Positions 15,901 through 21,900 of a DNA stretch of 64,000 bases are shown piece by piece (the first letter of the stretch is position 1; each line of letters opens with the position of its first letter). Source of the stretch: Bolinopsis microptera (lineage: Eukaryota; Ctenophora; Tentaculata; Lobata; Bolinopsidae); assembly GCF_026151205.1 (NCBI RefSeq), contig NC_087075.1, forward strand, positions 10,710,303 through 10,774,302. The letters run 5' to 3'. The position numbers and the translations under genes were made by a program. Below the pieces are notes generated by a model that saw only the letters and a program-made list of their open reading frames with translations, was not told where the DNA came from and searched no databases.

Positions 15901-18900
15901 ATACATAAATAACAACTATATATTATAATTATGATATTAATACATAAATAGATTAATTACGTTGAACTTTATAAATCACTTTATCCATCAGATTCATCAT
16001 TAAACCAGATTATGGGATTGTTCGAAATAGTATCTATGTCTCAATATGTTTGATATATATCACAGAGTATTACACATGAGGAAAAATGTAAACAGTTATT
16101 TTAATGTACTTTGCGTTTTAGTATCGACGTCCAAATATTATAGCGTTGTATTTAATATGTATTTTATAGATTTACGTTACGCTATGAAGTTTATCAGAAT
16201 TATTATTATAATAGAAGAGGGATTGCAAGACAGCATACTTAATACTTATTCCTTATTTATTATTATATCATTATTATACCCGAATAAGATTTAAGACGAT
16301 ACTATTTTGTTCTTTATAACTTATAACATACAAAAAATGTGTTTATTGTTTGTCGGTTAGTCCAATCGGAAACGTATATTTCAAGAATGCGAGTCATGAG
16401 TTGTTATAATTTTCCCAATTTCCTAGGAAAAAAGATTACCAATATCTTTCTTCAACAGATCACTCATTTTTCTAAATACTTTTAGTCATCATGGGATGCC
16501 TTTAAAATATTATCCATCATAAGTTTTATTGCACTTCTTGGAGCCTAAAAATCAAGCATGCAAATATGAGTACATCCCTTCCTGCAGTAGACGATAAATG
16601 TATTGATAAGTATTGTTTAAAACAGCCTTAGTATCTGGTGTTTGATTCAGTAAAAACAGTATCGTGTTATGCACAATAGATACAAAGCATCCATTGAGCC
16701 ATCAAAACTTAATATTTTCGACACAAAACCTTGATTTTGTGACAGTTAACAAATTTCGGAGTAGATTGCTTTCGTCAATTATGACTATATGGCACAATTC
16801 AGATCTCGTTATGTCGCAAGACACATCTCCCAATTTCCATTCCACAGAACATTAATTATAATTGTTATGTATGTATCCATATTATAATCATTGTACCCAT
16901 TACCCAAACACAGAAAACATAAGCACAGAATATTAGATTTACGAATATTTGCTCTGGACCCGCTCTGGACCATTGTTTGAGATCATTGCTTTTAATGTAT
17001 CGATTAAAAATCAATTATACATTAATTAAACCTGTTATGAAATTCAAAAAAAATAACCACTCTTCACGTTAACCGTTTGTTAACAGAAATCCTTGTGTGT
17101 AGAAACCACAATGTCTGCACGCGTTGGTACTGGCATCAGCACACGTGTGAACAAGTTAGTTAGTTAGTCAGTCGGTCAGTCAGTCAGTCAGTCAGTCAGT
17201 CAGTCAGTCAGTCAGTCAGTCAGTCAGTCAGTCAGTCAGTCAGTCAGTCAGTCAGTCAGTCAGTCAGTCAGTCAGTCAGTCAGTCAGTCAGTCAGTCAGT
17301 CAGTCAGTCAGTCAGTCAGTCAGTCAGTCAGTCAGTCAGTCAGTCAGTCAGTCAGTCAGTCAGTCAGTCAGTCAGTCAGTCAGTCAGTCAGTCAGTCAGT
17401 CAGTCAGTCAGTCAGTCAGTCAGTCAGTCAGTCAGTCAGTCAGTCAGTCAGTCAGTCAGTCAATCAGTTAGTTAGTTAGTTAGTTAGTTAGTTAGCGGCA
17501 CGCTAAGTAGCAGAAAGGGACGCCATCCAGCAGATATGTGACCAACCAGCTGCGCGGAAATTCATGAGCTGGCTAGAATCTGTCCTTCAGCTAAATCCTC
17601 TCAATTTTATTTGAATACCGGATAAAATAAGAGCCGGACCAATTTGATTAGTTCCGAAAAATCTTAAATTTACATAAAGATTTTGAGCGAATATTTTAAA
17701 ATGCAACATCCACCAGATTTAACAGGCACAATAAAACAGTTGCTAATTGCTAGTTTACTAAGTTGCTAATTTCTAGTTTATTAATTTGCTAATTGCTAGT
17801 TCACTAATTCTGTTAATTGACTACAGGAAGAGACTCTAACAGAAGTGGAGTATGAGAGGTACGAGGAGATGTGTACTAGTGAGATAGACGACCTGTTCGC
17901 TGAGGAGGACGTTAAACTGCCCAGGTTATTACTCATTAGTTATTTAATTTTAATTACCTATTAGTTAATTGTTAAGTGTAGACCCACTGGGCCATGTGGT
18001 CGTGGAGACACGTAATTTGCAGAAAATATTGTGCGTTTTTTTTGTGTATTTTGGCGATAAAAATGAGGAAAGATGCGGGATTGTGTTACTGCGGTTACTT
18101 GTTTCAAAACTGTAATTAGTATTTACTGCACTTAAGCGTATGGGAACCAAGTATAAGCACCAAACAAAGAAGACGCTGGAATGTTTAACTTAATCCAGAA
18201 AGCAAATTACAATAATATACACACACTGACATACTATCTGCAAACTGTAACGGCAAACACCCGTGTCATCACAGCGATAAGTACGTCTAATTATAACTTA
18301 TAACTAAAAATATACATCAGCTAGAGCTTTATCCGTCTATATCTAGAAATTTCTCTGGAAATAGTAATATAATAATAAAAGCTAAAATAGCTTAATTTGT
18401 GGTTTCTAGCTCCTTCACAGCCCTTAACTTACATTACTTAATACCAGGTTACAGGAACTGTTGGAATTGTCAGGAGAGCGAGAAAGTTTTCAGCAGACAT
18501 TTTGTCCGGTAATTATTAGTTTAAAGTGCTGATAATTGATTAATCGTATTTTAATTATTAAGCAAATCATACACGCTAAGAGAAAGCAGCAAAAGGACAG
18601 AAATAAGTTAGAACTAAGCAGCTCATGATTATTTGGTTATTTAATCTAATTTTTAGCACCGAACATCAACGAAAGCTGAAAGCATAGTTTTTAAGTTTAA
18701 TCAATTGACTGAACAGTTCCAGCCTGCTGCATGTCCCCTGCCCCGTCTTCAGGTGCACATTGCGCAGTCACTATGTTCCTGACCTCGTTTTCAGGTGCAC
18801 ACTGTGCAGTCTCTATGTTCCTGACCTCGTCTTCAGGTGCATATTGTGCAGTCTCTATGTTCCCTGCCTCGTTTTCAGGTGCACATTGCGCAGTCTTCAT

Positions 18901-21900
18901 GTTCCCTGCCTCGTCTTCAGGTGCACATTGCGCAGTCACTTTGTTCCTGACCTCGTCTTCAGGTGCACACTGTGCAGTTTCTATGTTCCCTGCCTCGTCT
19001 TCAGGTGCACATTGCGCAGTCTTCATGTTCCCTGCCTCGTCTTCAGGTGCACATTGCGCAGTCTCTATGTTCCCTGCCTCGTCTTCAGGTGCACATTGCG
19101 CAGTCACTATGTTCCTGACCTCGTCTTCAGGTGCACACTGTGCAGTCTCTATGTGCCCTGCCTCGTCTTCAGGTGCACATTGCGCAGTCTCTATGTTCCT
19201 GACCTCGTCTTCAGGTGCACATTGCGCAGTCTTCATGTTCCCTGCCTCGTCTTCAGGTGCACATTGCGCAGTCACTATGTTCCTGACCTCGTCTTCAGGT
19301 GCACACTGTGCAGTTTCTATGTTCCCTGCCTCGTCTTCAGGTGCACATTGCGCAGTCACTATGTTCCTGACCTCGTCTTCAGGTGCACACTGCACTGTGC
19401 AGTCTCTATGTTCCTGGCCTCGTATTCAGGTGCACATTGCGCAGTCTCTATGTTCCTGACCTTGTCTTCAGGTGCACACTGCGCAGTCTCTATGTTCCTG
19501 ACCTCGTCTTCAGGTGCACACTGCGCAGTCTCTATGTTCCTGACCTCGTCTTCAGATGCACACTGTATAGTCTTCACGTTCCTGACCTCGTCAGTGAACA
19601 TCTCGAGATCACTAGATTCTTGGTTAACACTTAGACTTACCCTGATCATGTTTACCGACCATCTCCATCTTGCCCATATGTAACCAACAGCCTTTTTGTA
19701 TAGGTCACTATAGAATACGGGATTCAAGAAACTGTTGACGGGAATCACCACCAGAGCGAACACCTCGAAGACTGAAGGTGGTGCTGATTGTTTGGGGAAG
19801 AACGCGTAGTAGACTGTTACCATGATGAAGAGTATCCAGGCTATGAGTTGACTTCCGATCATCAGAACTACTTTTAGTGTTAGAGATTTTGTAATATCCG
19901 CCTTTTGATCTCCTACACCGCCGGCCCCCTGGCCCCCCCTGTGCCAATGGTGCTTGTCGTAGAGCCGCGACACGTACTTTACTCTTTCTATCTTCCAGCA
20001 ATATATTGGTGTATGTTACAAGTACTGTGACCAACAGCAGTGCCAGAGTTATGCAGTAGAGAAGTTTGTAGATCCGATAAGATTCCTGGTGTTTGAAGAT
20101 GTTCTGAACACATAATCGGGTGTTGCCGTAGTAGCCTATCTCCTCACTATCGAACATGCTTCCCTTGGAAGTCGTGTTTTGGAGCTTTTCAAGCATCGTG
20201 TTTGTGTTACTTTCCATGGCGAATGCACCGTGGTACATTCTTGTAATTCTTGACATGTTGATAGGATTCTTGCTGAAAAATGGATTTTCATCAAGATTAG
20301 TGAAGAATATTTCCGTCCTAAAAATATCCTGTACGTCAGGAATGGGTAGGAGCGGAATAATAGCATGAGCTACATTTAGGAGAAGACCTATAACGGATCC
20401 TAAGACAATCCTCCTTGTTCTTATATCACTAACCATACTGGTGCAAGTTAGCCATCTGATCACACTGACAAATGCGACAGTCAACAAGGAGCCATGAGAG
20501 GATACAGAGAAGAGCACACCAAAAATAGAGCAGAAGATGCTGGCTCGCCACTTTCTCTCCAACAAGCAGTAGTCGCCTTTGAATCGGAGGATTGTAGCGG
20601 CTATGACGAAGAAGAATATTTGGAGACGAAAAATTCTGTCAATTTGACCGGTCTTTGAATTTATTTGGGAGCGATAGCATTTGTATCCCTCTACAGAGTT
20701 GATGATGACGATGAAGAGCCCCATGAAAATTGTGACTACTAGAACCGGTATGGATTGAATAAGGAACTTGGAGGAGGACAAACTTCCGTGGTCACATGTT
20801 CCACATTCATCACTACCGTCAGCACAATCCTTCACATGATCACATACTTTTTCAGGATCAATCCACACTGCTGTTGATTTTGGGCTGCAATAGAACCTGC
20901 TCGGACATCCAATTTCATCTGCCCCATTTTCACAGTCTTGCTTTTCATCACACAATGCTGTCACGTGGAAAGACTCTGTTCCAGATCTAAACGGATCTTT
21001 CTCACAGTTGAAAACAAAGTCCGCCCCTGACCAAATATCCCTAAATATATGGTCACAAAATTGTACCCAATTGTCCACTACGAAATCTGTCTCATTAGTG
21101 CAATTATATTTGCAATAAGATTTCAGGAAATTTACAGGATGTTCGCGCATTAATGCCATAAATGACCGCTGGTTATGTCTGTATTGTCTTTCCAGACACG
21201 AGTACAAGGGAGTAAGTTTATTTCCCTCAGCCTCACATTTATCAGCGTCACTCTTATCTGGAATAGTGCATTTAAAACGAGTTGACTTGGTATCCAGGCT
21301 TATGCACGTCTGCAGCACAGCAGGCAAACAAATGGGAGTGCTGCTGATGAGCGGGCAAGAAATCTTGATAAAATCTTCAGTGCAGTAACACTCATCAGAC
21401 CCATCAATACAATCCCGGGTACCATCACATAGATGGTCGAACGAGATGCAGCCTGAGCCGTCAAAGCAGTAGAAAACTTCAGTCAAGTTATTTTTACAGC
21501 TACACTCATCAGTGAGGCACTGAGACACTCCATCACAGACGTTGTTATCAGCCAGAGCACAGGTCCATACTGCATCTTCATAATTTGCTGCCAGGACGAC
21601 CTCTTCGACATGGTAAGGGTCAAAGTTGAACCGACAGGTTGTGGAACTATTTCTTATTTCTTGGGTTACCCCTTGTACGCTATATTGAAGCAAGAATCGT
21701 GTATATTGGTAGTAGTTTGATAATAACATGCTCTTTTGATCTACAGGTAGAAAGGGATGCCGTCCGATGACCTTCCTAAAATCAACTGCGAACTCTCTCC
21801 CCTGAAGACTAGTCCCCGGGACTTGGAATGGAAAGAGCAACAGAAGAAGCGGCAATAAGACACACCAAAATGAGATATCCTTCATTTTCCCTCTATTCAA

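Follow-up and report, generated by a model that had tools for sequence, protein, structure and literature searches.

Within the 64,000-nucleotide stretch of Bolinopsis microptera DNA analysed here (the window), the minus strand carries a copy of a receptor gene that is split between two open reading frames and runs into a tandem array with a 42-bp period. The first frame (19708..21927, minus strand), delineated from open reading frames, a profile match and hydrophobic segments, has a Met at 21885 and encodes a predicted signal peptide, an LDLa domain (approximately 21382-21477; Pfam E-value of 2.4e-8), the ectodomain and transmembrane segments TM1 to TM5, and then leaves the receptor frame in the third intracellular loop (ICL3). 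Alignment with paralogues reveals two lesions in this part of the copy. At the junction 20609..20610 (minus strand), an in-frame deletion of 33 nucleotides takes 11 residues out of TM2, among them the Asp of the DLLMG motif, presumed to be D2.50 as in LGR-type receptors; all five aligned paralogues (L009, L010, L011, L013 and L014) retain these nucleotides. Between TM5 and TM6, a 43-nucleotide insertion at a G-run (19908..19950, minus strand) shifts the frame, compared with an insertion of 42 nucleotides in the nearest paralogue, L009, and none in the other four.

The second frame (19359..20015, minus strand), recognized by its open reading frame, profile match and hydropathy, encompasses TM6, TM7 with the NPVFY motif (approximately 19710-19724), the region of helix 8 and 4 full units at the start of the array, followed by a stop; its match to 7tm_1 is weak (E-value of 0.0034, below the cut-off). 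The TM2 deletion and the ICL3 frame shift leave the window copy without an uninterrupted 7TM reading frame: TM7 itself is out of frame with the rest of the receptor in 19708-21927. The earlier note had the receptor run into about 21 repeat units, but the TM7 frame stops after 4 full units, behind a 5-nucleotide break. Because it combines three lesions, namely the 33-nucleotide TM2 deletion, the 1-nucleotide ICL3 shift and the 5-nucleotide shift in the array, the window copy is unlikely to be a working gene and is probably a pseudogene, a degraded member of its family, as judged from the sequence. The 1- and 5-nucleotide shifts, as small indels, may be assembly artefacts, considering that the B. 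microptera assembly was produced with wtdbg and polished with pilon.

The array itself is real. Tandem Repeats Finder (TRF) places it at 18737..19592 on the minus strand, with a period of 42, 20.3 copies and a score of 1238, whereas only 6 of 100 dinucleotide shuffles of 18697-19600 yielded an array with a score of at least 50, the maximum being 63; to that extent, the coding-type array reported behind the receptor TM7 stands. Unit spacing resolves about 20 units of 14 residues, QCAPEDE(V/A)(R/G)NIETA: among the 20 units on the minus strand, 18 intervals are of 42 nucleotides and one is of 47, the latter corresponding to a unit with the 5-nucleotide insertion (19391..19437, minus strand) that breaks the frame. 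The 4 units covered by the TM7/NPVFY frame (ORF 19359-20015) are followed by the remaining 16, which are stop-free in the unit frame and end with AGTVQSID and a stop (18697..19425, minus strand). This open extension past the break, which had been noted previously, is confirmed, but its stop-freeness is weak evidence because the plus-strand frames across the array are open as well. The two unit subtypes do alternate, as proposed, in the first 8 units past the break (VR/AG), but not elsewhere.

The 14-residue unit was also identified at six other loci of the same genome, each time behind a paralogous 7TM gene; 34 of its 36 matches fall at the seven receptor loci, and the two outside are weak and contain stops, so that a mobile satellite is not supported. 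Neither are retrocopies, given that the similarity between paralogues extends beyond both gene ends, with rearrangements. Four paralogues, L010, L011, L013 and L014 (950, 903, 936 and 1009 aa, respectively), can each be read in one open frame that starts at the Met, crosses the 7TM core and takes in 10-17 units, which indicates that the tail belongs to the receptor across the family. The idea of the repeat as a receptor tail therefore holds for the family but fails where the window copy is taken for a functional gene. The number of recognized units per array varies from 16 to 26 by paralogue, and 6 of the 7 arrays of this type contain a stop or frame break before their end. In L014, the entire array is open and leads to the C-terminal end DAYLKL; similar AYLKL/AYLNL-like ends follow the array in L010-L013, but behind stops or in another frame.

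The family to which these genes belong comprises 61 matches, or about 58 loci, on 13 chromosomes, a lower bound, with 58 of 609 candidates scored; 56 of the 61 matches contain no stop, and the members are mostly single open frames. Among ten paralogues searched against Pfam, 7tm_1 was found in 8 (E-values from 0.0041 to 1.3e-8; the curated cut-off was passed by L016 alone) and was not listed for L015 and L037. For L021 and L027, hydropathy analysis recovered seven core segments, and for L013, L014 and L016 fewer exceeded the threshold; the NPxxY motif is NPVFY in the window copy, NPLFY in L010-L014 and NPVFH in several further members. Taken by these features (7TM core, 7tm_1 and NPxxY), the predicted proteins qualify as class A (rhodopsin-like) GPCRs. 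All ten paralogues contain LDLa at an E-value of 0.01 or lower, with 6 exceeding the curated cut-off, and no leucine-rich repeat family was listed at that threshold for the ten paralogues or the two window pieces, so that the designation LGR-type does not apply in the strict sense. A comparison of L013 with the PDB put the FSH receptor on top (E-value of 2e-4), with histamine and other receptors close behind, a weak likeness of the cores.

Judged by their reading frames, intact members end in long in-frame tandem-repeat tails, and these tails consist of unrelated units in five subfamilies. The units span 14, 6, 15, 16 and 25 residues (periods of 42, 18, 45, 48 and 75 bp, respectively), show no clear similarity to each other in any of the 10 pairings and, for the 15-, 16- and 25-residue types, have no genome-wide matches outside their own receptors. 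At the sequence level, the tails show what is expected of a VNTR-type receptor tail: coding repeats that are nearly identical and lie in a cytoplasmic segment. In a tree of 47 rows, the 14-residue type forms one clade (support 100/100) and the 25-residue type another (100/100), whereas L027 lies within a 10-row clade (100/99) the other nine rows of which lack such tails. The tree program flagged the joining of two long branches, L025 and L027, and their pairing is possibly false for that reason. A single ancestral repeat tail with subsequent turnover of units may have existed within a 20-row clade. In three members, a 20-bp array closes the frame after about two units.

The tail arrays begin soon after helix 8, and the junction from helix 8 to the first unit is stop-free and keeps the frame in L010-L014 and likewise in the four other unit types. 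This conservation of frame, along with the inclusion of the whole L014 array in the open frame, argues against the possibility that the array belongs to a 3' UTR or is removed by splicing, its openness being accidental; even considering the open plus-strand frames over the window array and the array portions located downstream of a stop in L010, L011, L012 and L013, we regard this possibility as improbable. Still less probable is the reading in which every unit provides a site for palmitoylation or a Cys-acidic scaffold, with copy number tuning membrane anchoring. A Cys occupies the second position in 125 of the 140 units of the 14-residue type and one is found in the 25-residue unit of L018, L020 and L021, but L015, L016 and L027 have none in their consensus units, and within the 14-residue type Cys is kept no better than its neighbours (Thr in 137 units, Asn in 136, Asp in 130), being lost in 4 of 17 units of L014 and 6 of 24 of L012. 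With Cys confined to two of the five unit types and neutral-like changes between units, repeated palmitoylation, which the earlier note had raised as a possible role of the array, is not supported as a common theme.

The property that the tails share is acidity. The net charge of the in-frame repeat tails ranges from -11 to -62, and the frame in use is the most acidic of the six in all five unit types. The fractions of open same-composition shuffles that are at least as acidic are.041,.020,.001,.227 and.071 for the five unit types, in a test that was devised after the tails had been seen and for which a second open forward frame existed in only two of the five. We see about even chances that the tails of these LDLa-bearing, class A-like ctenophore receptors grew by slippage, were selected for acidic composition and modulate coupling. 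Under this scenario, slippage or unequal exchange would create short in-frame duplications in a poorly constrained tail and expand them; arrays that read as an acidic, soluble, disordered chain would be retained, whereas a different frame, a period that is not a multiple of 3, or an array that gains a TAG or a frame break would end the protein early. The chain would act through its bulk charge and its length, not its exact sequence. In the simplest case, it would pair reversibly with the basic cytoplasmic face and limit the access of G proteins, as in the beta2-adrenergic tail; it might also offer many weak docking sites. The stronger version is less likely than not: that the family repeatedly bore unrelated in-frame minisatellites at one place behind helix 8, of which selection kept the acidic ones, the tail becoming a fast-evolving charge-and-length dial for G-protein or arrestin coupling that depends on overall composition and not on sequence.

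The main rival is that the minisatellites are merely tolerated: repeats without function would grow and decay by mutation pressure in an unconstrained tail, the acidic ones surviving because hydrophobic or basic tails harm folding or trafficking. We give this explanation somewhat less than an even chance. It is favoured by the changes between units, which are close to the neutral ratio (140 nonsynonymous to 38 synonymous over seven loci of the 14-residue type, against an expectation of about 3.5:1; in L014, the sole fully open array, 18:2, above the expectation), such that no constraint was found on residues inside units. Nor are charge-changing substitutions depleted, with 57 charge-losing changes between units of the 14-residue type against 45.9 expected. 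Stops and frame breaks are frequent and even amplified, a TAG-bearing unit being present three times in L010, and many tandem arrays lie in flanking sequence downstream of the family's reading frames. Against tolerance alone, the arrays recur at a single tail position across five subfamilies, each time with an acidic reading, and the long open tails stay on cores with dN/dS of 0.20-0.51 (six pairs of L010, L011, L013 and L014); the 7TM core of intact paralogues looks constrained, unlike the unit residues. The predicted cytoplasmic face (loops and helix 8) has a summed charge of +8 to +12 in nine tail-bearing members with filled columns. It is not more basic than in members without repeat tails (means of 9.9 for the 9 and 10.2 for 28, p 0.52; L012, L027, L048, L050, L052, L053 and L054, with poorly filled loops, are omitted and WIN, L009 and L028 uncounted).

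To our knowledge, the C-tail of the beta2-adrenergic receptor contains no repeats. Its negatively charged, disordered tail of 71 residues pairs with the receptor's positively charged cytoplasmic face and thereby autoinhibits it (PMC10085991), a mechanism that was tested in that receptor, whereas for the ctenophore family it is only inferred. A parallel in kind is the human dopamine D4 receptor (DRD4), where a coding tandem repeat with a 16-residue unit lies, like the family tails, in a cytoplasmic part of the receptor (PMC5766964). The DRD4 repeat, however, is a proline-rich segment of ICL3 in one gene that is polymorphic among people, whereas the ctenophore repeats are acidic C-tails with unrelated units in several subfamilies, seen in one assembly. 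Cephalopod rhodopsin contains short conserved PPQGY repeat units. It likewise has a long, unusual class A C-tail, described as significantly longer and proline-rich (PMC9740569), the proline content setting it apart from the tails considered here. In the mammalian melatonin-related receptor GPR50, the C-terminus is lengthened by a long extension that includes ten degenerate heptads; it was proposed to be a flexible scaffold and was compared with the CTD of RNA polymerase II, with conservation at Ser and basic positions (PMC2323367). These heptads belong to one gene; they are not near-identical and do not form acidic minisatellites.

We know of coding repeats in receptors only from single genes. 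GPCR clades radiated independently in ctenophores, and copy number differs between Mnemiopsis species (PMC13231562); the main text of that article contains no occurrence of "tandem repeat", and the one mention of the term in PMC11797021 concerns a discarded scaffold. A limited search of the open-licence literature did not turn up any description of repeat tails in receptors of ctenophores. Through such tails, the receptor radiations of ctenophores would gain a rapid source of variation, one that could easily escape surveys of copy number and automated annotation. Unrelated acidic tails in several branches, beside tail-less relatives, would amount to a natural experiment on whether a disordered receptor tail needs its exact sequence or only its charge and length.

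The tandem array in the tail of the window receptor gene occupies positions 18737-19592 on the minus strand (TRF: period 42, 20.3 copies). Its score of 1238 compares with a maximum of 63 among 100 dinucleotide shuffles of 18697-19600 (six of which reached 50 or more), so that the 42-bp coding-type minisatellite described in the earlier note is borne out. In the minus-strand reading, 20 units were counted, which lie 42 nt apart in 18 cases and 47 nt apart in one. The number approximates the 21 or so units that had been placed behind TM7, but only four of these share the open reading frame of TM6, TM7 and the NPVFY motif (19359-20015, minus strand); the remaining 16, beyond a 5-nt insertion that interrupts the array, are indeed stop-free but in a different frame (18697-19425, minus strand). 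The signal peptide, the LDLa domain and segments TM1-TM5 are encoded in a separate open frame (19708-21927, minus strand).

Alignment of the window copy with five paralogues (L009, L010, L011, L013 and L014) revealed a loss of 33 nt from TM2 at 20609/20610, so that 11 residues are missing, among them the Asp of the DLLMG motif (presumably D2.50). An insertion in ICL3 is absent from L010, L011, L013 and L014 but measures 43 nt in the window copy compared to 42 nt in its sister L009 (tree support 100/99), which results in a frame shift in the window copy. L009 itself has a 10-nt insertion of its own near TM5 as well as frame breaks within its array. The dN/dS ratio between the two sisters is 0.50 over the parts preceding the breaks, and the core ratios for the six pairs among L010, L011, L013 and L014 are in the range of 0.20 to 0.51. 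In this kind of assembly, small indels may be artefacts; the 33-nt loss would be atypical for sequencing error, and we infer that the window copy is a young pseudogene.

A search of the same assembly (264.65 Mb, 232 contigs) with the 14-aa unit yielded 36 matches, two of them weak and located elsewhere, and the rest at seven loci, namely, the window and six paralogous receptors, all six of which carry the unit behind TM7. The frame is open from the Met to the tail in L010 (950 aa), L011 (903 aa), L013 (936 aa) and L014 (1009 aa); it is broken in L009, and in L012, the start is missing next to a run of N. Among the seven arrays built from this unit, only that of L014 remains open all the way; it is coding throughout and terminates with DAYLKL. 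The L011 array keeps its spacing and contains two stops, and a TAG ends the frame in the 13th unit of L010 and the 12th unit of L013, with the rest of the array behind the stop. The TAG-carrying unit occurs three times within the L010 array (4746-5913 of the oriented locus), so that turnover of the repeats has apparently propagated the nonsense mutation.

The receptor core of L013 retrieved 61 matches, or about 58 loci once three split genes are merged, on chromosomes C1-C13, a family size that is a lower bound because 58 of 609 candidates were scored. No stop is present in 56 of the 61 matches, and the open frames are mostly about 430 to 1,080 aa long; 47 loci (the window and L009-L054) were read. 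Among ten paralogues scanned with Pfam at E up to 0.01, LDLa was listed in all ten (above the curated cut-off in six), 7tm_1 in eight (above the cut-off only in L016), and leucine-rich repeats in none. The FSH receptor is the top PDB match of L013 (E 2e-4), closely followed by histamine and other receptors. The combination of LDLa and 7tm_1 without leucine-rich repeats, with the FSH receptor barely ahead, argues at the sequence level for a diverged class A-like family rather than the LGR-type receptor, in the strict sense, that had been proposed.

Coding-type tail arrays recur in 14 of the 47 members. Seven of these (the window and L009-L014) have the 14-aa unit, whereas L018, L020 and L021 share one of 25 aa. 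Units of 15 and 16 aa are found in L016 and L027, respectively, and one of 6 aa in L015 as well as in L028, where it follows an upstream break of the frame. A natural counter-example is the 20-bp array of L022, L023 and L032, the period of which is not divisible by 3, and where the frame stops after about two units. These arrays, of 22-31 copies, lie behind the core and begin close to where the receptor frame ends. A degenerate 54-bp array in L037 and L039 is only partly in the receptor frame. The remaining 28 members either have shorter tails, the frame of which no such array overlaps, or are truncated or disrupted. None of the 10 pairings of units showed clear similarity; the lowest shuffle fractions, 0.015 for DNA and 0.04 for protein, are not unusual given 20 tests. 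Three unit types searched genome-wide produced no matches beyond their own receptor loci. In the tree, the 14-aa type forms one fully supported clade, as does the 25-aa type, and the L027 type belongs to a separate 10-row clade (100/99), adjoining the repeat-free L025, a pairing that may be false given the warning of the tree program that two long branches meet. Scored simply as present or absent, coding repeat tails require at least three changes on the tree, and within a 20-row clade, the units may have turned over from a single ancestral repeat tail.

Summed over the seven loci, the distinct changes between 14-aa units include 140 nonsynonymous and 38 synonymous ones, close to the ratio of about 3.5 to 1 expected under neutrality, in counts that are not independent because the loci share ancestry; L014 alone contributes 18 and 2, respectively. 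The other unit types, with small numbers, scatter around the expectation (6:3, 8:2, 2:0, 12:4, 23:6 and 2:3). Charge-losing changes between units are not depleted (57 seen vs 45.9 expected). The Cys, envisaged in the earlier note as a repeated palmitoylation or scaffold site, is retained in 125 of 140 units, less often than Thr, Asn, Asp and Pro, which speaks against its being the key residue. Given the near-neutral changes and the lack of charge-loss depletion, the exact unit sequence is under no visible constraint; selection on the tail, if any, would target bulk properties and openness. The 7TM core of the 14-aa-type paralogues, judging from the sequences, is under constraint, and in other subfamilies, pairwise core dN/dS ranges from 0.10 to 0.99, with the top values among the repeat-tail-free L045-L047.

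Repeat tails that read in frame have a net charge of -29 to -38 in L010-L014, -62 in L016, -45 in L027, -12 in L015, and -11 to -16 in L018, L020 and L021. In all five unit types, none of the other five frames is as acidic as the one in use, and open shuffles of the same composition are at least as acidic in fractions of 0.041, 0.020, 0.001, 0.227 and 0.071 (about 1e-4 when joined by hand with Fisher's method). The test was chosen post hoc, with the tails already seen, and a second open forward frame exists in just two of the five types, so that its outcome is no more than suggestive. The cytoplasmic face carries a charge of +8 to +12 in nine tail-bearing members and is basic in repeat-free members, too. 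We favour a scenario in which slippage would grow the arrays and selection on composition would keep an acidic, presumably disordered tail that could pair with the basic face and so temper coupling, by analogy with the beta2-adrenergic tail, where such pairing and its tempering effect were measured (PMC10085991). Nearly as likely as such a composition-selected tail are arrays that are merely tolerated.

That a single receptor family carries several acidic minisatellites of unrelated sequence in its tails seems to be new; a limited search of the open-licence literature found no report of such a case. Cephalopod rhodopsin tails carry repeats. Published work describes cytoplasmic repeats in DRD4 (PMC5766964), repeats or an unusual tail in GPR50 (PMC2323367), and unusual cytoplasmic tails in cephalopod rhodopsins (PMC9740569, figure legend).

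Two related open frames of the window, 9946-10977 and 13233-13982 (both plus strand; 343 and 249 aa), resemble by eye another putative intronless 7TM receptor pair, the second one shortened. Many ionotropic glutamate receptors of this genome are apparently intronless as well: the ligand-binding family gave 32 matches, many of them single open frames of 400-990 aa. The best matches of one such locus, L055, are kainate receptors, and that of another, L056, among solved structures, is ML032222a, presumably a Mnemiopsis protein. By eye, a 385-aa open frame at 25663-26820 (minus strand) is like a family III CoA-transferase (racemase-like), and 28913-29650 (plus strand) and 30780-31958 (minus strand) are putative pieces of non-LTR retrotransposon reverse transcriptases. 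A tandem array at 1924-3027 has nested periods of 63, 133 and 257 bp, that is, a higher-order repeat. A 360-copy TC run (8205-8922) and an 85-copy AGTC run (17154-17492) keep several reading frames open over long stretches and could lead gene-prediction programs astray. Finally, the same series of small repeats at 42329-42782 and, offset by 1,673 bp, at 44002-44455 suggests a tandem segmental duplication.
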